Assembly (NCBI RefSeq): GCF_009725235.1
Contig: NZ_WJFC01000022.1
Coordinates: 37,559-101,558 of the forward strand
Direction of reading: 5' to 3'
Source of the DNA: Scytonema sp. UIC 10036
GTDB taxonomy: Bacteria; Cyanobacteriota; Cyanobacteriia; Cyanobacteriales; Nostocaceae
Length of the DNA stretch: 64,000 bases
Positions 17,647 to 53,004 of the stretch are shown one piece after another. The notes beneath the pieces are model-generated. The model worked only from the letters and a program-made list of their open reading frames with translations, did not search any database and was not told the origin of the DNA. The position numbers and the translations under genes were made by a program. Positions within the stretch are counted from its first letter, which is position 1, and the number at the start of each line of letters is the position of its first letter.

Positions 17647-17827
17647 GGTGCAACTCCTCAATGAATCGGTCAAGTGCTTCTTTAATCCGCTCTTTCTTCT
17701 CCGGTGCTTTGGCAACACGCCAGGTTTTGAGTATACGATCGCGCAGTGCTTCCAGTTCCCCTCTAGCTAGCCCAAGAGATTGGGAATCTCTCAGGCGACT
17801 AACTCCCCCAACGCTGACTGTAATTTC
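17636..17827 (-). CDS. Small protein frame without a clear start
   Basis: An open frame of about 63 codons encodes SRLRDSQSLGLARGELEALRDRI-type sequence and LKTWRVAKAPEKKERIKEALDRFIEELHRAD, clearly protein-like and helical. It is open from a stop at 17828-17830, but no ATG, GTG or TTG occurs in its first 20 codons. It overlaps the end of the 17791-17961 gene in another frame. Either it starts from a rare codon, or a frameshift has split one longer gene into two or three parts. Confidence 0.4.
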   Translation of the reverse strand, partial: EITVSVGGVSRLRDSQSLGLARGELEALRDRILKTWRVAKAPEKKERIKEALDRFIEELHRAD

Positions 17828-18877: not shown

Positions 18878-19537
18878 TCAAACATCAGGTGAAGATGGTG
18901 GTGTAGATTCACCTGTTGTTGGTTCCACTTCTGCAATGAACTTATCCAACACCTTCACAGCAGTTTTGTACTGAGGAGATGTGGTAGCCACCTTGTTTTT
19001 ACCTTGAGTCAGCGATTTGAGGATGCGCGAGCGTATTGCCTGTAAATCCGGTAATGGGGTTGCAGCTCTTTCCTGAGCTTCCTTATTATTCAGTCTCAAA
19101 AGTAACTCCTGATTCTCTACCTTGAGTGCTTCTATTTGTGCAAAAAGCTGCTCGTTCTCAGACGGCATTGTCTCTACCTCCATTGGCTGTTGTTGTGCTG
19201 ATTTCTGCAACTGTTCTCGCTTATCTGTACGCTCATCTAGAGCAGATTCTAGATGGCGGAGATTGCCCTGTAGTTCTTCTAGTTTCTCCTCTAAAATCTG
19301 AACCAAACGCCATTCTAGATTTCTCTCTCGCTCGTCTAGAATGGTATCTAGATTGGATGGAAGTTGTGGTTGTACTTGGATTCTAGCTTCAATCCGAGAA
19401 TCTATAATAGAATCTAGATTATCTAGATGAGTGCTTCTTTTGGTGTCAGCAGCAATTCTGTTTCCAGACCGATACCAGCAAATGAAATCAACCAGCACAG
19501 CCGAGGCGCTCGACCCCTCTGCTTTTGCCTGTGCCAT
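18878..19537 (-). CDS. RHH/coiled-coil DNA-binding protein, 5' end apparently frameshifted
   Basis: From ATG 19537 the product has 219 residues: a helical N terminus (GSSASAVLVDFICWYRSGNRI), a long coiled coil (about 40-160) and a C-terminal motif ending SPQYKTAVKVLDKFIAEVEP. The same tail pattern (APGYKAALKALNDFIAAL) ends the RHH protein at 22638-22982, so the two are probably paralogues. Upstream, the frame continues as QFLATFRINQDEWKDF, which looks like the missing strand of an RHH domain. An ATG reading MSERTV at the edge of the large inverted repeat is out of frame with it, so the original 5' end seems to have been damaged by rearrangement. The coding strand has seven or so CTAGAT/TCTAGA copies in 200 bp. 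Confidence 0.6.
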   Translation of the reverse strand: MAQAKAEGSSASAVLVDFICWYRSGNRIAADTKRSTHLDNLDSIIDSRIEARIQVQPQLPSNLDTILDERERNLEWRLVQILEEKLEELQGNLRHLESALDERTDKREQLQKSAQQQPMEVETMPSENEQLFAQIEALKVENQELLLRLNNKEAQERAATPLPDLQAIRSRILKSLTQGKNKVATTSPQYKTAVKVLDKFIAEVEPTTGESTPPSSPDV

Positions 19538-19581
19538 AAAATCCTTCCACTCATCTTGATTAATGCGGAAGGTGGCTAGAA

Positions 19582-19834
19582 ACTGTACGTTCGCTCATTT
19601 TGTGAGGGCGAGAGGAATTAATGCCTTACTGTATAAGGAAAAAACCATTATCTGGATCTGATGGCGGTCATACCGTGTAATACTTGGGAAAGGGCAAATG
19701 AAATTAAAGGTGTATTATGTGGTACGAGGGAAATCAACCGTCCCGTGTAATACATGGAAACACAGAAAATTCACAAAAAAGACTGCGATCGCAAAGCGCA
19801 AGCTGTACCCAGCTTATCGCCCTTGGCGCAAGCC
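19582..19834. repeat. Left arm of a 253-bp inverted repeat
   Basis: Positions 19582-19834 are repeated almost base for base, inverted, at 23182-23434. The arm starts ACTGTACGTTCGCTC, contains GAGAGGAATTAATGCC and three array palindromes, and ends at GCGCAAGCC. Similarity resumes after an insertion, at 20461-20635 against about 23020-23181. Confidence 0.9.
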
Positions 19835-20866
19835 GTACCCGGCTTATCGCAAAGCGCAAGTGTATTGAGACAATAAAGTCTTACACTGGCGTAGCCCATT
19901 CGCCTTAATCTTACGTTAGCCAAAAAAACTGGTGTACAAAGAAAATGATTAGCTGAACTGGAGAATAATTAGTTGAACTAGAGAATAATTAGCTGAACGA
20001 GAGCAGAGGTACGCGCTCGCGCTACAATATGACGGTTGTGTTTGCTACAGCCACAATCCACAAAGTTTTGCTGTAACACCAGTTCAAGTTTTTATTCTCC
20101 TAGCTCAAACTTATGTATGTAGAATAAAACTGCCGAGTCTAGGTAATTATTTTTGAGTGTGTCCTGAACTAGGGACGTAAAATTCGCGCTTTGGGAGCAT
20201 CTTAAGTTCAGCTAACTATTCTCGTTGTACAACTGGATTGACAATAAAGTTTTACCAACAGACGCTTGCCCATTCCTTTTGTCAGAAGCGAGAGTGACAA
20301 TAAAGTTTGACACCAAGTTTGTGAAAATGCTTGAGAATAAAGGCCTATCATACAAAATCTAGTCGCAAGCGTACCAAACTATGGATGGTTCCAGTGTAGA
20401 ACTTTATTGTCTGGGGTAAGGGTTTATTGCCAAGAGTTGAACTTTATTGTTTTTATACAGCAAGCCTTAGATGTGCTTATCGCACCAGCTTTCGGTGTAA
20501 TACACGGAAAAGGGAACGGACTTTTCTCCATGTATTACATGAAGGGATTTGCGACCGCCATCCTGGCGTCATCCCGTGTATTACATTTTGAAATTCGGCA
20601 ACGTCAGGTTAAACTTACGATGTAATACACGGGAGAAGAGTCATGGGAAAAGGTGGAGGGGAGTAACGGTGTAATCTATGGAAAAAGCCCCCGAAGGCTT
20701 CCGTGTATTACATGGGGAAGGAATTCCGAGCACGCTTGTGTTACATGAAGACAGGTGATTCTGTGTAATACAGGGTACGGTCGCCCTATTTAAAGTTGCA
20801 CCTCCGGTGTAATACACGGTAAGAGTTCATGTTGAAATGGGATGGCAATGAGCGTGTATTATTATC
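19673..20866. repeat. Palindrome array A-left
   Basis: Variants of the odd-centred 15-mer CCGTGTAWTACACGG occur near 19673, 19709, 19743, 20493, 20528, 20573, 20618, 20667, 20701, 20738, 20761, 20804 and 20851. Spacing is mostly 34-49 bp, and the spacers are not conserved. Half-sites often alternate in orientation. The array is interrupted by an insertion at 19835-20460. It lies upstream of the RHH-type gene at 18878-19537 and has no open frame of its own. Repeated protein-binding sites are the most likely explanation. Confidence 0.85.
19835..20460. mobile_element. Nested MITE-like insertion
   Basis: About 626 bp interrupt the left copy of the repeat relative to the right copy, and the hexamer CAAGCC occurs on both sides (19829-19834 and 20461-20466), possibly a target duplication. 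Inside are repeated copies of GACAATAAAGT: direct near 19866, 20241 and 20295, inverted near 20398 and 20437. GACAATAAAGTCTTACACTGG at the left and its near-exact inverse at about 20390-20412 look like terminal repeats. A short direct repeat around GAGAATAATTAG (about 19955-20000) is also present. No gene is seen. Confidence 0.6.
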
Positions 20867-20882
20867 CATGCCTATGGTATAA

Positions 20883-22588
20883 TCATGCTGAGCTACCCAC
20901 CGAATCTACCTGATAAAGGGAATCGGGCATTCTCATTAAATCAAGAATTTGTTTTTGTAGCTCAGACAAAGGCGTCACGAAGATGGTAGAATCAGGTAAA
21001 AAATAGAGAGTTAAATGACAAAAAGCTTTGAGCATTTTCTCTGCTGATGGGCGTTCAGTTTTGCGCTTGGGATTGCCATCGTAAAGACCAGCCAACGATT
21101 GTTGAGTTTCTATAAGTGCCTGCCGCACTACAAACTCCATCAAAGTAAATACCCGTAAAGCAATGTTCAGCAAGAACATCAAGCCAGTGATTCGGTTTTG
21201 GTCAGTGAAGTAAATGGGTAGGGCGGGTAGAGAACCGCGTTTAAAACGGTGAAACCCTCGCTCCAATACCCATTCATTCCGGTAATACATGACAGCAAGT
21301 GATAGACTTAGTTGAGCAAGGGGTGCGTTAGTGACGTACAATCGCCATCCTGCCAAAGTTTCTGCTTTCTTGATTGCAGCATCTTGAAGCTGGATCTGAA
21401 GTTGAAGACAAATACTGGTTACCAATTCAGTGGGAGAATTTTTTGATGGTCGTCCTCGTCCGACATGACGAGTTTTTTGAATGATTTGTTCTGTAATTCT
21501 GGTCTTGAAGAAATCTTTAACACGATAACGCTCAAGAATGTTTTCTACTTTATGCGCTAGTACTTGTGGATCTTCTCCTGGTTTAGTGGCTAATTTATTG
21601 AGAGCTGTTCTCGCGCTCGTTATGCGTTGCTGTTGACCACGGATAGCAGATGCTGCAAGGCTAGTGGAATAAACTACCAAATAGCGTTCATGCCAACGTA
21701 CCCATTTGTTGGTTTCTGGGTTTAACCAAAACTTGCCTAACTCCACTTCAAAACCCTTGCCCACATCCGGTTCATCTTCATCCTGATGCGGGAAACGAAT
21801 GGACTGAATTTCTGTAGGTGGGTTTAGTACCCATTGCCTAGTTGTTGGGGGTGTTGTCCACTCATGGGAACAGGGAAACAATAAATACCGCCACTTGCTG
21901 CCATAGCACCGCGAGTTGCAATCGCACCGGCTTTGCAATCAGCAATGAAGACGAACTTTTTATGCCCAATCACTCTCACCATTTTTTCCCAAGTGGGAAA
22001 ATATAATGGGTCATCGGCTCCATTACCTTCAACGGTAGCGCTCACCAATGGCATTCCCATTGGGTCGAGGGTCGCTAATAATTGACGGTATTGCAGTAAA
22101 TCTGGGCGAAAGTCTTTGGAATAGCCATAACGCAGTAGGTTTTCTTCAACTGACTCTCCTGGAGTATGATTCACACTAAAACTACTTGTATCCGCTCGTG
22201 CTACAACAGTTGGCAATTCGTAGGCACGAATCAGATGCCGTCCTAGCTTTACCTCAATTTCCACTCTGGCGTGTGATTGCTTCCCTAGCTCTTCGACTAC
22301 CCTTGCCAATCGGTCATCAGTGGCATCTTTTTCCGCGATTGACCATCCCGTAGTTAACTCTAAAATCTTTCGATGTGTTTGCACCCAAGGTTCCACAGCA
22401 GACAACCGATGGTCTGACTGAGTGATGATGTATGTTAGTAACAATACACCCAATTGACCGTAACTCAGCCCTTTGTGATTTCCGTGTGGTTCACTGAGTT
22501 TTTGGTCAATACATTTGGCAATCTCCATCTGTTTGAGCCACTCCACTATCACAGGAATATCGTCGATGCGCTCAGAAGTTATTTCCAT
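20883..22588 (-). pseudogene. IS1634-type DDE transposase, frameshifted
   Basis: Two overlapping frames, 21824-22588 and 20883-21938, make up one IS1634-family (IS4-like) transposase. The first has the DUF4277-type N terminus and the DDE residues in ADTSSFSVNHT and FIADCKAGA. The second has the glutamate region LERGFHRFKRGSLPALPIYF. The frame changes near 21840, where PMSGQHPQQL should be followed by QWVLNPP. No classic A-rich slippery heptamer is there, so decay is more likely than programmed frameshifting, although a C5 run is close by. Terminal repeats of the insertion sequence could not be fixed by eye. Confidence 0.8.
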
Positions 22589-22637
22589 TGTTGTTTCTGC
22601 CAGAGTTTATGTTGGCGAACACGGATTGTTACGTATA

Positions 22638-22982
22638 CTAGCTTGAGAGTGCCGCAATAAAATCATTGAGGGCTTTAAGTGCTGCTTTATAACCAGGAGC
22701 TTGCTTACCCAATTTTAATCGTAGTAAAACTTGGTCACGTACATTTTCAAGTGTTACCACCTGTCGTGGCGTAGTCGTAGGTTCCACAGCAGTAGCTTTG
22801 GCTCGATCTATTGGCTCTTTTTCCCGTGTAATACTTGGGCTGGCATACCCCCTCATCAAATGTTCCAAGTAGTCAGATCTACTCATTCCCAAGCATTCAG
22901 CCGCAATCCCCATAATCTTCCAAGTTTCGTCAGTTAATCTGACTGAACGCACTTGACGATAATCATCATTTAAAGCGTGCAA
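22638..22982 (-). CDS. RHH DNA-binding protein next to the palindrome array
   Basis: The 114-residue frame starts at TTG 22982, with AAGGGA a few bases upstream. Residues 10-50 (QVRSVRLTDETWKIMGIAAECLGMSRSDYLEHLMRGY) have the strand-helix-helix pattern of ribbon-helix-helix proteins. The C-terminal part (about 78-114, ENVRDQVLLRLKLGKQAPGYKAALKALNDFIAAL) matches the tail of the 18878-19537 protein. The upstream DNA is array A-right, and one array-like site (about 22823-22837, CCCGTGTAATACTTGG) lies inside the gene and encodes PSITRE. A self-regulating or partition-like protein binding the palindromes is a reasonable inference. Confidence 0.65.
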   Translation of the reverse strand: MHALNDDYRQVRSVRLTDETWKIMGIAAECLGMSRSDYLEHLMRGYASPSITREKEPIDRAKATAVEPTTTPRQVVTLENVRDQVLLRLKLGKQAPGYKAALKALNDFIAALSS

Positions 22983-23018
22983 ACTTCCCTTGAATGTCCC
23001 GCTTCAACATAACTCGGC

Positions 23019-23343
23019 TTCGGTGTATTACACCGTAAATTTAACCTGACGTTGCCGAATTTCAAAATGTAATACACGGGATGACGCCAGGATGGCGGTC
23101 GCAAATCCCTTCATGTAATACATGGAGAAAAGTCCATTCCCTTTTCCGTGTATTACACCGAAAGCTGGTGCGATAAGCTAAGGCTTGCGCCAAGGGCGAT
23201 AAGCTGGGTACAGCTTGCGCTTTGCGATCGCAATCTTTTTTGTGAATTTTCTGTGTTTCCATGTATTACACGGGACGGTTGATTTCCCTCGTACCACATA
23301 ATACACCTTTAATTTCATTTGCCCTTTCCCAAGTATTACACGG
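23019..23343. repeat. Palindrome array A-right
   Basis: Copies of the palindrome lie near 23019, 23067, 23111, 23145, 23261, 23297 and 23330. Most of the segment is an inverted copy of array A-left without the nested insertion. Segment 22983-23571 has no gene; the stretch 23435-23571 shows nothing further recognisable. Confidence 0.85.
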
Positions 23344-23434
23344 TATGACCGCCATCAGATCCAGATAATGGTTTTTTCCTTATACAGTAAGGCATTAATT
23401 CCTCTCGCCCTCACAAAATGAGCGAACGTACAGT
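23182..23434. repeat. Right arm of the 253-bp inverted repeat
   Basis: Inverted partner of 19582-19834. It ends on ATGAGCGAACGTACAGT, which at the left arm carries the displaced start codon of the RHH-type gene. The segment therefore looks like a duplicated upstream region of that gene. Confidence 0.9.
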
Positions 23435-47675: not shown

Positions 47676-48590
47676 ATGGCTTATGCGATCGCACGGCTGG
47701 CTAAACTCAAAAAGCACAATCTAGCAGGCAGTGCTTCTCATACTGCCAGAACACGACCCACGCCCAATGCCGACCTCACCAAACAAAACATTAGGTTTAT
47801 TGGCAGTACTGACCCAAACGAGAAATTCGAAGACCTCGTACAAGCCAAAATCAATTCCTACACCCAGAAGCGCAAGATACGTCCCGATGCTGTGTACTGT
47901 GTAGAACTTTTGTTGACTGCATCCCCCAGCTACTTTAGACCAGATGCCCCCACTAACGGTGGGTATTATGAAGAGGACAAACTCAAGGATTGGTTTGATG
48001 CTGCCCAAAATTGGCTCAATGATGAGTATGGCGATCGCATTGTTAGGGCAGAACTCCACCTCGATGAGATGACCCCCCACATCCACGCTTACTTTGTCCC
48101 ATTGGATGACCGGGGGCAACTGCGGTGCAATCACTTCTTCGATGGCAGGCAGAAGATGCGAGCTTTTCAGGATTCCCACTACACCGCCATGCAGCACTTG
48201 GGGTTGGAGCGTGGCATCAAAGGCAGTGTCGCCAAACATCAGGATATTAAGGACTTCTACAGAATTGTTGAGGAAGGTCGAGACCTTCAATTGGGAGAAC
48301 TATCAGCAGAACAACTGACAGCCAAGGCAGCTGATAGGGATAGGGCAGTCCAAAAGAAAAGCGAAATGGAGGAAACAGCCCTTCGGTTGGTGAAGGAGCA
48401 GGAACTCCTGCAACAACGGATTCAGCAGTTGTCAGCAGAAAACCAACAACTGCGTTCCTCGCAAGCGCAACTGGCTGACCAGCTGCGAGACCTTCCCTTA
48501 GAAGAAGTGGCATGGCAGTTGGGATTGACTCAGGATGCCAAAGGAGATGGTCGCTGGAAAGGTACAGGACACATCATTAATATAACGTGA
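47676..48590 (+). pseudogene. MobV-type relaxase, 5' part of a split gene
   Basis: The N-terminal domain is a Pre/Mob (MOBV) relaxase. AIARLAKLKKHNLAGSASH is the start typical of plasmid recombination enzymes. The metal-binding motif ELHLDEMTPHIHAYFVPLD (His-x-Asp-Glu-x-Thr-Pro-His-x-His) lies at about residues 129-147. A coiled coil follows from about 225 to 275. Relaxases nick one strand at oriT and carry it into the recipient. At 48586 an element interrupts the gene; the last codons before it read GHIINI. The rest of the protein is at 51201-52028. Confidence 0.85.
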
Positions 48591-48776
48591 GTTCGACGGA
48601 GCTAAAAACGTAGAAAGCATACTGTATAAAGTATTGAGCGTATGTACTGTATGTTGGCTCAGCTATTGTGAAGGGTGAGAGGAATTAATGCCTAACAGGG
48701 TAAGGAAAAACCGACGTTGAGGATGAGATTGTGCTTCTATCGTGTAAGACGCCCAGAAAGGGGGAAGGGAAATAAC

Positions 48777-49265
48777 GGTGTAATACACGGTATTGGCGAT
48801 CGCGCAGTTCCGTGTATTACATTGTCAAGGAATTCACTCGCTGTGGTGTTACATGAATCCAGGTGATTCCGTGTAACGCAGGTTACAGCAGCACAATTAA
48901 GTTGGCTCTACAGTGTAATACACGGTAGGGGCTTCAACATGACTGTGATTCGGTGTATTACACCGTAGAACGCGCTGATTGGTAAAGGGTAGAATGTAAC
49001 TTTGGAGCAATGCGATGAGGGTTTCTATGGAGCCAATGAGTGAGCGAGGCTGTTGCCGCCGCTGCGCGATCGCTTCGGCGCAAGCTGTACCCAGCTTATC
49101 GCCACCACTTGAAAAGCCAGTCCGAAAAAATATTTCTGACATTGCGGATTACGAATTGGGCATATTTACGATCGATAGCTACCATGTATTACACGGGAAC
49201 ACCTGATTTCCCCGATCCCATGTAATACACGCTCCCCTCGGCTTCTTTCACCAAGTATTACACGG
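48777..49265. repeat. Palindrome array B-left
   Basis: Sites near 48777, 48809, 48846, 48867, 48911, 48951, 49183, 49220 and 49251 match the array at 19673-20866 in motif and order, with different spacers. A stretch related to the start of that array (GAGAGGAATTAATGCC, about 48680) precedes it. Between 48970 and 49180 a dispersed repeat GCGATCGC/GCAAGCTGTACCCAGC is present. Confidence 0.85.
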
Positions 49266-49467
49266 GTGATGTTTTAGTCGCTCCACAATTCTTTTGAAAC
49301 CTTACCCTGTCAGGCATGAATTCCTCTCTCTGTTCCCAGCAGGAGCGAACGATTCGTATGTACAGAGAAATGGATAATACTTATGGCTAAGATTTATGGA
49401 GAAATAGGTAAAAAGTGACAAGAAAAAGCCAAGACTAAAAAATATCTATCAAAATCAGGTCTCGGCT

Positions 49468-50334
49468 ATGTCTGACATTGTATCTCGTCTTGACATTACA
49501 CATATCTTCTCCGACGTGGATGATTTCTGTAATCAATGGGATTCTTTGTGGCTTTCTGTGCCGCAGTTACCATCCACTAAAGGGGAACGTCGTTCTCAAT
49601 CCCGGATGCACTTATCAGAGGTGATGACAATAGTCATCGCATTTCATGGTAGTGGTTATAAGACTTTTAAGGAATTTTATACATTACACGTGCTACCTGG
49701 CTGGCGCTCGGCATTTCCAAACTTGGTCAGTTATACCAGATTTGTGGAACTCATGCCTTGGTGCTTAATGCTATTGTCTTGTTTTTTACATACGCTGACG
49801 GGAGAAATTACAGGAATTAGTTTCATCGACTCGACCCCAATTGATGTTTGTCATAACTGCCGCGCGCATTCTCATCAGGTTTTTAAAGGATTAGTGACAT
49901 GGGGAAAAAATTCTGTTGGCTGGCACTTTGGATTTAAACTTCATTTGATTATTAATGACCGTGGGGAACTACTTGCATTTAAGCTAACTCCCGCGAATGT
50001 TGATGATCGTCAGCCAGTTCCAGATCTAACTAAAGATTTAATTGGTAAGCTTTTTGGAGACAGAGGGTATATTTCACAAAAATTATTTGAGGAATTGTAT
50101 GAGCGAGGTTTACAACTAATCACAAAGTCTAAGAAGAAAATGAAAAATCGTTTGGTCAAACTGATTGACAAAATTCTTTTACGCAAACGCGCGGTAATTG
50201 AGTCGGTTAATGACTATCTGAAAAATGTGTGTCAAATAGAACATTCCCGTCATCGGAGTCCATTTAACTTTCTGGTTAATTTAATGGCTGGTGAGCGCGG
50301 CATACTGCTATTTACCGAAAAAACCATCTATTGA
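49468..50334 (+). CDS. IS982-family transposase
   Basis: A 288-residue intact DDE transposase. Family features include the N-terminal VDDFCNQW, LSEVMTIVIAFHGSGYKTFKEFYT and LVSYTRFVELMP. The catalytic Asp lies in FIDSTPIDVCHN (about 120), the second in FGDRGYIS (about 195), and the Glu in RKRAVIESVNDYLKN (about 248). The gene sits in the core of the element at 48586-51193. I did not find typical IS982 terminal repeats directly around it, so the outer ends at 48586 and 51193 may be the functional ends. Because the protein is complete, the element may still be mobile. Confidence 0.9.
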   Translation: MSDIVSRLDITHIFSDVDDFCNQWDSLWLSVPQLPSTKGERRSQSRMHLSEVMTIVIAFHGSGYKTFKEFYTLHVLPGWRSAFPNLVSYTRFVELMPWCLMLLSCFLHTLTGEITGISFIDSTPIDVCHNCRAHSHQVFKGLVTWGKNSVGWHFGFKLHLIINDRGELLAFKLTPANVDDRQPVPDLTKDLIGKLFGDRGYISQKLFEELYERGLQLITKSKKKMKNRLVKLIDKILLRKRAVIESVNDYLKNVCQIEHSRHRSPFNFLVNLMAGERGILLFTEKTIY

Positions 50335-50512
50335 TATTTATCCGAAAGATTTGCCTGCACTACCTCCTGCTATTTTTTAGACCCGTCGAGATCAGATCAA
50401 ATTTACCATATATTCTCAATAGTCTTCAGACATCATACTTCTTTTATAGTTCGTATGCACTATTTTTGGAGGTGTGACAATTGAGGGTGCGGAATATGGG
50501 CTAAAACATCAC

Positions 50513-51002
50513 CCGTGTAATACTTGGTGAAAGAAGCCGAGGGGAGCGTGTATTACATGGGATCGGGGAAATCAGGTGTTCCCGTGTAATACATGGTAGC
50601 TATCGATCGTAAATATGCCCAATTCGTAATCCGCAATGTCAGAAATATTTTTTCGGACTGGCTTTTCAAGTGGTGGCGATAAGCTGGGTACAGCTTGCGC
50701 CGAAGCGATCGCGCAGCGGCGGCAACAGCCTCGCTCACTCATTGGCTCCATAGAAACCCTCATCGCATTGCTCCAAAGTTACATTCTACCCTTTACCAAT
50801 CAGCGCGTTCTACGGTGTAATACACCGAATCACAGTCATGTTGAAGCCCCTACCGTGTATTACACTGTAGAGCCAACTTAATTGTGCTGCTGTAACCTGC
50901 GTTACACGGAATCACCTGGATTCATGTAACACCACAGCGAGTGAATTCCTTGACAATGTAATACACGGAACTGCGCGATCGCCAATACCGTGTATTACAC
51001 CG
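50513..51002. repeat. Palindrome array B-right
   Basis: Inverted copy of array B-left, nearly identical base for base, with one apparent single-base length difference in the outer half of the arms. It has the same nine palindromes in mirrored order. Confidence 0.85.
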
Positions 51003-51200
51003 TTATTTCCCTTCCCCCTTTCTGGGCGTCTTACACGATAGAAGCACAATCTCATCCTCAACGTCGGTTTTTCCTTACCCTGTTAGGCATTAATTCCTCT
51101 CACCCTTCACAATAGCTGAGCCAACATACAGTACATACGCTCAATACTTTATACAGTATGCTTTCTACGTTTTTAGCTCCGTCGAACTCACGTTAATATA

Positions 51201-52028
51201 GATGGACACTCGTGGTATGACTTTGCCCCTAGTTCCCACTCGGGGGGTGGTGGTGCGATTGACTTGGTGATGTATGTCAACAGTTGTACCTTCCGAGAAG
51301 CTCTAGCCTGGTTGAATGATAGATTTGGAGAAGGGGGTATGCTCAAAGCTGCCACTCACCATGCCAGGATACAAGCGCAACAGATTGCCCAAACAGAACC
51401 AACACCACAGTTCATACCACCCGCTGTTGATTCTAGCCAGTGGCCATCTGTTGAACGCTATCTCACCCAACAAAGGGGATTGCCAAAAGAAATGGTGCAA
51501 GCCCTCCACGGTCAGGGGTTGGTTTATGCTGACTCCAACCAAAATGCTGTATTCAGAATGCGCTCGCTCACGGGAGAAACCACCGGGGCATTCTTGCGCG
51601 GCACCAGGGGTGAAGACAACTCTTTCATGGGATACGCTCGTGGCACCAAACGAGATGCAGGTTGGTTCTATCTCAGATGGGGTGGACAGCCTGATGGTGA
51701 TATCCAGCGAGTTGTGCTGACAAAATCCCCCATTGATGCACTATCACTGGTAGCGATTGAAGGAATCCCCCAACAAAGAACCATGTATCTGGTTGCTGAT
51801 AGTGCCAAGAGCCTGCCTGTGGAATACTTCAGAACCATCCCAAAAGTGATAGCCGCTTTAGATAGTGATGCATCTGGGAATGAATTGGCTCAAGCGATTC
51901 GGGAGCAGCTGCCAGAAGCACAGCGGGTACGTCCTGCATTGAAGGATTGGAATGAGGAGCTGTTGGCTAGGTTGCGACAACAGCAACAGCAAAACCAGAA
52001 ACAGAAGAACCGGGGAATTGAGCGATAA
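51201..52028 (+). pseudogene. MobV relaxase, 3' part (DUF3991/TOPRIM-like)
   Basis: After the element the relaxase frame resumes as DGHSWYDFAPSSHSGGGGAIDLVMYVNSCTFREALAWLNDRFG, a zinc-finger/primase-like CHC2-DUF3991 region. A TOPRIM-like part follows: VVLTKSPIDALSL with the acidic pair, YLVADS and IAALDSDASGNELA. A helical Gln-rich end closes the protein. TOPRIM-type tails are common on cyanobacterial mobilisation proteins and suggest a primase or strand-processing step after transfer. Segment 51264-52028 could still be translated from GTG 51264, giving a separate 254-residue product. Confidence 0.8.
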
Positions 52029-53004
52029 ACAACCAACCGACACAATTAGGGTAGCTGCCGAGATACGTGCAAAAAGAGACACGTTGTAAATAAATATTGC
52101 AAACAATCCCTTGTTGATTTACTAACTTGCCCAAAAATGATATCGGGCAAATCAAATTTTTGCATGGTAAAACCAAGCTTTCACCTCTTTTTGTCCCTGA
52201 CACTTGCCCAAAAATGACCCTTTTAGGGAATGTCTTCATTTAAATGGTTAAGTAATGGTTGAGGCTGAAACAACGGTAAATCAAGGTTTTTGACAATTAG
52301 ATTTACAAAACTTTACAATATGTCCCATTTTGCAGGTATCTCGGTGGCTACCCTACTTCAACGACAACCGCTGTTTTTCTCTAAATGCACGATCGGTAGA
52401 AGGACACGGTGGTGACGATCGCACACCTCTGTGCAAAACACCGTGAGGAGAAATCGCTTACCAGTTAGGCGGTGCAGAAGCTTTAGCCGTCCTAGCCGAA
52501 CATGAAGCCCAATTTATTGAACCCAAAGGCGATGTTTCTACTCAGAAGATTGAAGAAACTAAAGTAGCACTACAAGAATTGGGATTGCACGGCAATATTG
52601 AGAAGGACTTAGATTAAGTAGATTCAATTTTGATTTGACGATCGCGTATTGCAGTAAATAAAATTAATTTATTAAGTAGGTAGGTGAGAAAAAACGAACT
52701 ATGTAAAGATATTTAAATATGCTAGAACCCCTACAAATGACAAATGACAAATGACAAATGACAAATGACGATCCTCACTAGTTAGCTTTATTTGTGACAA
52801 TCTACTTATATCGGTCACAAGAAATATTTTCCGAAGCTTTACCAAAACTTCAAATATTAGTATTTTTACTGACATTCAATTTCTAGCGGTCGCAAATCTA
52901 AATTCTGTGCCTTCTTTACAATCCAGTCCGCATAGGTGGACTTAGTTTGTATAGCCGCGATTTCCAATCACCGAAGCTAAGAAAGATTATAAAAACAGCA
53001 AATT
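52029..53004. other. Degenerate intergenic stretch
   Basis: About 975 bases without an intact gene. It holds a relic frame (52447-52617), a heptanucleotide tandem repeat (about 52735-52768, CAAATGA x5) and several GCGATCGC-type or AT-rich tracts. Nothing else is recognised. Confidence 0.5.
52447..52617 (+). pseudogene. C-terminal relic of a lost gene
   Basis: A 56-residue frame preceded by a stop reads EIAYQLGGAEALAVLAEHEAQF and TQKIEETKVALQELGLHGNI, clearly protein-like. It begins GGA immediately after TGA and has no start codon. The family is not recognised. Confidence 0.35.

Follow-up and report, generated by a model that had tools for sequence, protein, structure and literature searches.

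CopG, a ribbon–helix–helix (RHH) repressor, is encoded beside the Rep gene on rolling-circle plasmids, and an RHH gene combined with arrays of sites is the form of known partition loci. To our knowledge, self-restraint of insertion sequences (ISs) has been described for a few model elements only. Two closer systems come from cyanobacteria. Arc_1 and Arc_2 are RHH regulators of V-K CRISPR-associated transposons, 53–72 aa long and encoded upstream of cas12k in reverse orientation, and Anabaena PCC 7120 has TrcR, an RHH protein that represses its own gene and whose motif, ATACTACACTTGTATTAC, overlaps the −10 box of that gene (PMC9938897 and PMC10272220, respectively). Here we analyze a 64-kb stretch of Scytonema sp. 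UIC 10036 (the window), in which arrays of a palindrome, CCGTGTANTACACGG, lie in the ends, promoter, and RHH gene of a decayed IS1634-family transposon, element 1 (Table 1). With a probability of roughly 0.6, we favor the reading that an RHH gene with its own operator array has been captured by several unrelated cyanobacterial elements, in which it would serve as a built-in governor of transposase supply.

Some distant members of the RHH family described here adjoin Rep_1 genes, as CopG does; unlike CopG, the family has multi-site arrays and in-gene operators, and its main branch resides in transposons. The associated transposases belong to the IS1634 and IS1182 families and the elements have inverted ends, but to these they add a regulator gene and arrayed ends. 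Arc_1/Arc_2 and CvkR resemble the present family in being small regulators, of RHH or MerR type, whose genes reside in Tn7-like transposons of cyanobacteria, whereas the proteins here are about 90–180 aa long, lie beside IS1634, IS1182, or TnsAB/TnsC genes, and come with arrays and in-gene sites; at lengths of 90–177 aa and with IS1634, IS1182, or TnsC neighbors, they fall outside the Arc_1/Arc_2 definition (53–72 aa, upstream of cas12k), cas12k itself not having been searched for (PMC9938897). TrcR is likewise a cyanobacterial RHH protein; GTATTAC occurs within its operator, which overlaps the −10 region of the promoter of its gene. It is described, however, as a host regulator of tRNA and translation genes with an 18-bp motif, against the 15-bp palindrome here (PMC10272220). 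A literature search, with most subscription papers and ISfinder outside its scope, found no RHH gene with an operator array described in IS1634, IS1182, or non-CRISPR Tn7-like elements, in agreement with a preliminary description of the stretch that took the protein family to be undescribed. Transposon-encoded repressors are known; what appears to be new is the array module shared between elements, together with the operators inside the gene.

Scanned at up to three mismatches, the window holds 32 palindrome matches, compared with a mean of 1.26 and a maximum of 6 in 100 dinucleotide shuffles, and 17 of these fall within 19582–23434 (one of them, at 22482, without the GTAnTAC core). Within clusters, neighboring palindromes are 35–83 bp apart, plus a single interval of 113 bp, and the same scan gave no match between 2331 and 19672. 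The palindromes of the preliminary description are therefore real, as is its array site within an RHH gene (palindrome 22824, inside 22638–22982). Its argument that diverged spacers show selection held only in part. The window copies cannot be treated as independent, because the arms of element 1 are 95–99% inverted duplicates, and six of the nine matches in the left arm repeat right-arm sites in inverted orientation; for this reason spacer divergence cannot be argued from the window copies alone. It can be argued from relatives: in five IS1634-type elements, identity at the transposase 3′ end is 83% for the sites and 82% for the terminal repeats, as against 62% for the spacers.

The outer borders of element 1 (CTGTACGTTCGC and GCGAACGTACAG) match those of complete relatives, and no target duplication is visible at them. 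Its transposase gene is broken by a frameshift, with two frames matching one intact IS1634-family protein (21824–22588 is 81% identical by tblastn to residues 1–250 of the L001 transposase); the family assignment rests on the L001 protein, which matches NF033559 and to which the window copy is 76–81% identical. The RHH gene, with 312 homologs at E ≤ 1e-3, is also damaged: relatives start ∼10 residues earlier, so that the window copy is frame-disrupted near its 5′ end. The sites upstream of it (23008–23178) are placed like the upstream site of all 71 distinct RHH genes examined below.

Near-identical copies and target duplications in complete relatives identify the unit as a mobile element that has moved recently. 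Nostoc carneum NIES-2107 contains an intact unit with a 568-aa IS1634-family transposase (NF033559, 290 bits, cut-off 100), an upstream 128-aa RHH gene, inverted ends, and palindromes both at the two ends and within the RHH gene. The genome carries 15 near-identical RHH copies (13 at one score and 2 slightly lower), 8 of them on contig C1, the chromosome, and all 13 loci fetched have a full-length transposase at 100% identity. IS1634-type elements end in CTGTACG..CGTACAG terminal inverted repeats, and matching 5- to 7-bp flanks were found for 16 of 25 insertions, compared with 11 of 600 mispaired flanks (one base offset allowed). Measured copies span 2.6–3.0 kb; the exceptions are the window copy, at 3.9 kb, and one row of 4.2 kb that is mis-paired. 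Complete 2.7-kb units are filled by the RHH and transposase genes. At L005–L006 of Tolypothrix campylonemoides (G002), the RHH frame contains one TAG and continues as a 711-codon frame, which suggests a stop in frame with the following transposase.

The same RHH family accompanies several other mobile elements. Its proteins contain a linker, to which those of the main family add a conserved C-terminal tail, and they show the sequence pattern of the RHH (Arc/CopG/MetJ) superfamily, a β-strand plus two helices. Sequence searches against solved structures returned no RHH chain, Foldseek (E ≤ 0.001) and protein searches of a phage collection gave no match, and PADLOC made no assignment for two element RHH proteins. 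Our genome samples (195 to 388 genomes) were drawn from the order of G001; a scan of Genome Taxonomy Database genomes gave 94 confirmed loci, 80 of which were kept, and 120 of the 312 homologous proteins were listed. For 55 distinct full-length RHH proteins, drawn from all loci collected, a transposase of IS1634, IS1182, or Tn7-like type lies no more than 700 bp from the gene in 45 cases; in the other 10, none of these three does. IS1182-type transposases lie near 31 (21 upstream on the same strand, 6 convergent, 3 divergent, and 1 other), IS1634-type near 10, and Tn7-like near 4. The IS1182 assignment was made on L003 (NF033551, 340.6 bits, cut-off 270) and extended to other members by tblastn to L003. 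The Tn7-like locus L048 encodes a 908-aa protein with TnsA-like_N, rve, and Mu-transpos_C domains (a TnsA–TnsB fusion) next to a TnsC-type ATPase (TniB/AAA); its RHH frame is itself broken by stop codons.

The RHH tree places the IS1634-linked genes in a single clade (support 100/99), together with four rows without a transposase; L050, a locus containing pieces of both transposases, stands apart. One change is required for the Tn7-linked group and one for the divergent-IS1182 group, support being weak in both cases. The same sites accompany more distant RHH genes that adjoin Rep_1 genes (L176, which also has KilA-N, and L184) or a ParE toxin gene (L185); at L166 the adjacent gene is RVT_N, of group II intron type. 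One distant RHH gene, with six sites, is on a Rep plasmid of Planktothrix (4,522 bp), and related RHH genes occur on large plasmids as well. Two broader scans were not used as module counts: the RHH alignment scan (64 of 388 genomes, E ≤ 1e-8) includes tail-only and partial matches, and the distant-alignment phylum scan (32 of 386 genomes) includes weak matches in 290- to 320-codon frames, its spot check having shown TetR-type frames at a guessed position.

Three further loci of this family deserve mention. In G284, a distant RHH gene occurs sevenfold, and the four copies fetched (L176–L179) sit in similar, rearranged stretches with sites, perhaps integrated Rep elements given the KilA-N and Rep_1 genes of L176. 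At L185 (2406–3728) and L186 (3208–4513), a ParE-type toxin gene (tested in L185) lies beside a distant RHH gene with the same operators, where the RHH protein might act as antitoxin or repressor of the locus. On plasmid pAzo02 of ‘Nostoc azollae’, a gene annotated with a TnsA N-terminal domain overlaps an RHH remnant (L002, 7682–8065 and 8002–8115), probably a decayed Tn7-like copy of the module.

The sites are under selection. We picked 71 distinct RHH genes by an N-terminal pattern, to which genes with a non-fitting N-terminus are invisible; the elements bearing them are related, and site counts are not independent trials. All 71 have a palindrome within 80 nt upstream, compared with a mean of 0.10 in shuffled upstream regions. 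In 57 it ends 8–12 nt before the start codon, and in 50 a −10-like hexamer (most commonly TAAACT) starts exactly 8 bp before the site, a pattern chosen after seeing the sequences; no such hexamer was found in 14 of the 71 upstream regions. The core common to palindromes of RHH-bearing elements is GTAWTAC, and CCGTGTAATACACGG is the predicted RHH site. Across 38 chosen loci, neighboring sites are spaced 33–36 bp apart in 55 of 117 cases and 44–46 bp in 23.

Selection also acts on the DNA of sites inside the RHH genes. After 16 of the 71 genes were set aside as outside the length bounds, 45 of the remaining 55 contained in-gene sites (at most two mismatches), 67 in number against 7.0 under random synonymous recoding (maximum 16). 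All are in frame, mostly as P-[S/C]-[I/N]-T-R, often repeated 11 or 21–22 codons on, and they fall in the linker, at low AlphaFold confidence (residues 57–83). Nine of the 55 genes have no in-gene site even at three mismatches; eight of these belong to a unicellular lineage, in which several loci instead have a site just after the RHH gene and the outer palindrome letters change to CCAWGTAWTACWTGG with the GTAWTAC core kept. Among 12 mostly distant RHH genes (two also among the 55), 10 have an upstream site and 9 have in-gene sites, compared with 1.7 under recoding (maximum 5); these occur at various codons and in all three frames, and it is therefore the DNA that is selected.

The sites also track the presence of the RHH gene. 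Of 30 IS1634 transposase loci returned from 195 genomes, a single one carries the RHH gene and sites, and both the RHH gene and core sites are absent from the remaining 29 (0/29). Alignments of 510 residues or more were obtained for 9 of these 29, with 64% identity for the closest; the rest are fragments or distant. Six of 30 IS1182 transposase loci carry the RHH gene, all with 2–4 sites, and none of the 24 without it has a core site (0/24), one holding a single three-mismatch word without the core. This match between sites and RHH gene is one arrangement in ∼590,000 if the loci are independent, which they are not wholly. The reverse search, for two neighboring sites, found the pattern in 10 of 195 genomes, compared with 3 for a reversed control pattern. 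An RHH gene is adjacent in five; two of the other five lack a full 15-bp site, two are apparent remnants with a Tn7-type or IS1182-type end sequence (judged by reading), and one has a three-site locus with no RHH gene recognized. The view of the preliminary description that the array belongs with the RHH gene and looks like a multi-operator locus agrees with the RHH-free transposase loci and, apart from that three-site locus, mostly with the reverse search. No other repeated perfect palindromes, even or odd, were found in eight divergent loci.

The best reading of these associations, held at the same probability as given above, is that the RHH protein represses its own gene and also coats its element; this is favored by the promoter operator, the in-gene sites, the portability of the module, and the two cyanobacterial precedents (Arc_1/Arc_2 and TrcR). 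Binding, repression, and coating are proposed from sequence association. RHH dimers would bind each 15-bp palindrome and first shut their own promoter, whose operator would start just after the −10-like hexamer. They would then spread to neighboring sites, often 33–36 or 44–46 bp apart, in the gene and element ends, and the spread protein would damp transcription through the element, including that of the RHH gene, a downstream or neighboring transposase gene, and transcription incoming from outside. A role for RHH-bound ends in transposition itself is possible but not needed. The main observation that simple promoter repression does not explain is the conserved array at the transposase 3′ end, where no gene starts; such an array could stop outside transcription or act on transposition. 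Sites are missing near the transposase-side end of the IS1182-type elements L055, L067, and L069, and in the Tn7-like L048 they are confined to the RHH gene, at one end. These four favor autoregulation as the common core, with end arrays as an elaboration in some transposons.

A wider role for the module is conceivable but doubtful. The RHH gene and array may be a self-contained governor passed between unrelated elements, in which one nucleoprotein assembly, with RHH protein at the promoter, in the gene, and at the ends, might control both transcription and transposition itself, through end access or pairing or through copy counting by pairing in trans; the operator array would be written into the codons of the RHH linker, and the binding platform would thus travel with its gene. 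It is unlikely that the RHH protein is instead an architectural transposition factor, its bound arrays bending or bridging the ends to promote or license synapsis and being needed in cis. Sites do lie at both ends of IS1634-type elements and of several IS1182-type elements of different gene order (L046, L040, L084), those at the transposase 3′ end are conserved like terminal repeats, short RHH-free units retain sites (L004, window element 2, and probably L212 and L213), and the two spacing clusters are about one helical turn apart. However, the same RHH family accompanies three unrelated transposase families, whose relatives exist without it, some in multiple copies (G125 has seven same-scoring transposase copies, and the one examined, L090, has no RHH gene); L055, L067, and L069 lack transposase-side sites, L048 has a single sited end, and Rep_1 plasmids have no ends at all.

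Another alternative, in which the transposase or a host factor recognizes the palindromes and the RHH gene is a passenger, seems improbable. The outer palindromes do fall within IS1634-type terminal inverted repeats, but RHH-free relatives of both transposases have no core sites, which led us to disfavor this explanation; unrelated transposases share one palindrome whenever the RHH gene is present, and sites occur in and upstream of RHH genes beside Rep_1 genes. The centromere proposed in the preliminary description, an RHH protein of ParR/ParG/Omega type on an array that segregates a plasmid, is still less credible, and we rejected it in the transposon context: the unit has the target duplications of a transposon, its array travels with transposons on chromosome and plasmids (8 of the 15 N. 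carneum copies are chromosomal), and the complete 2.7-kb L001 unit contains only the RHH and transposase genes. No NTPase partner (ParM/ParA) is annotated beside the array in that unit, where no ParA/ParM profile search was made. The large plasmids and the small six-site Rep plasmid with related RHH genes are what partition would account for. Least probable of all, and likewise disfavored, is action of the repeats in RNA as hairpins serving as attenuators or terminators, since CCAAGTATTACACGG, the variant common within genes, gives no stem (0 kcal/mol) and a unicellular-lineage variant reaches only −0.5 kcal/mol; a small stem is possible for perfect copies (two words, at −6.3 and −4.9 kcal/mol).

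In cyanobacteria, a single package of regulator and operators appears to have joined IS1634, IS1182, and Tn7-like transposons as well as Rep plasmids, and its occurrence in several element types suggests a brake that is general and exchangeable. Operators inside the gene seem a clear example of DNA-level selection shaping a protein linker. Because the elements are compact, some of them multi-copy, and present in named strains (Nostoc carneum NIES-2107 and Fremyella diplosiphon NIES-3275), binding, repression, and transposition are directly testable. The palindrome motif is, in addition, a simple annotation handle for several hundred proteins of unknown function and for non-autonomous relatives.

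Table 1. Features of the window (positions count from its first nucleotide)
Feature	Position	Strand	Basis or remark
Element 1: decayed IS1634-family transposon with RHH gene and palindrome arrays	19583..23433	-	Ends CTGTACGTTCGC...GCGAACGTACAG
Left outer arm, inverted copy of 23179–23434; sites 19673, 19743	19582..19837		256 nt, 99% complementary
Insertion of 637 bp in left arm, not in right arm	19838..20474		Gap between inverted pairs
Inner left arm, inverts 23008–23178; sites 20493, 20528, 20574, 20618	20475..20645		171 nt, 95% complementary
Original transposase-3′-end array; sites 20701, 20761, 20805	20701..20819		Placed like arrays of L012, L005, L008, L009, L011
IS1634-family transposase, C-terminal part, other frame	20883..21938	-	76% identical to L001 residues 239–564
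IS1634-family transposase, N-terminal part (DUF4277)	21824..22588	-	Pfam PF14104, E 9e-7
Element 1 RHH gene, 114-aa frame	22638..22982	-	Homologs, alignments, sequence comparison
Palindrome within RHH coding sequence, codons PSITR	22824..22838	-	Same codons in relatives
Stretch upstream of RHH gene; sites 23021, 23065, 23111, 23146	23008..23178		Inverted-repeat and site scans
Right outer arm, RHH-side end; sites 23259, 23329	23179..23434		Inverted-repeat and site scans
Second RHH-like gene, 5′ part removed by element 1 insertion	18878..19582	-	Open frame reaches element border
Element 2: 695-bp perfect inverted repeats with 14 palindromes around an IS982-type element	48585..51193		Inverted-repeat scan
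Non-autonomous unit, like a miniature inverted-repeat transposable element (MITE), inside element 2; IS1634-type ends and arrays	48646..49364		Ends by eye; inverted pair 85%
IS982-family transposase	49468..50334	+	NCBIfam NF033520, 242 bits, cut-off 130
Possible remnant: single palindrome near IS1182-type end word CTGTTGGCGAA	2316..2421		End word at 2411, minus strand

A second RHH-like gene had been taken as a partner flanking the array. Two cooperating genes are not what we found: the RHH gene at 22638–22982 lies inside element 1, whereas the other lies outside it and is a bystander interrupted by the transposon. Its open frame, 18878–19537, extends to 19582, the element border, where it reads FLATFRINQDEW (an RHH-like start, interrupted), and what remains of the gene contains no palindrome site. 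The matching C-terminal tails that had been noticed in the two proteins stand, the tail of the interrupted gene resembling that of an element RHH protein at E 3e-6; a third tail-bearing stretch lies at 17651–17791 (E 5e-4). The element tail, LKxGKQxxxYKxAxKxLxxFI, thus recurs in two further genes adjoining element 1 (17651–17791 and 18926–19093) and may be a common module of cyanobacterial plasmid proteins.

The insertion in the left arm of element 1 has small inverted repeats of its own, three inverted pairs in all, which surround ACAATAAAGT / ACTTTATTGT; it is possibly a nested small element. The second palindrome set of the window, 14 sites at 48776–51002, lies inside the perfect inverted repeats of element 2, which splits a relaxase gene (Mob_Pre at 47676–48590 and Toprim/DUF3991 at 51264–52028) and is flanked on both sides by TAATATA (flanks read by eye). 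The MITE-like unit within it lies in the left arm of element 2 and runs just past the arm’s edge, and tblastn found no match to the RHH protein or the IS1634 transposase in it. Elsewhere, the isolated palindrome at 2316 lies ∼95 bp from the IS1182-type end word at 2411, and a palindrome-free stretch at 52052–52350, with short inverted ends GGTAGCTGCCGAGATAC / GTATCTCGGTGGCTACC ∼290 bp apart, resembles a small IS1182-type non-autonomous element.

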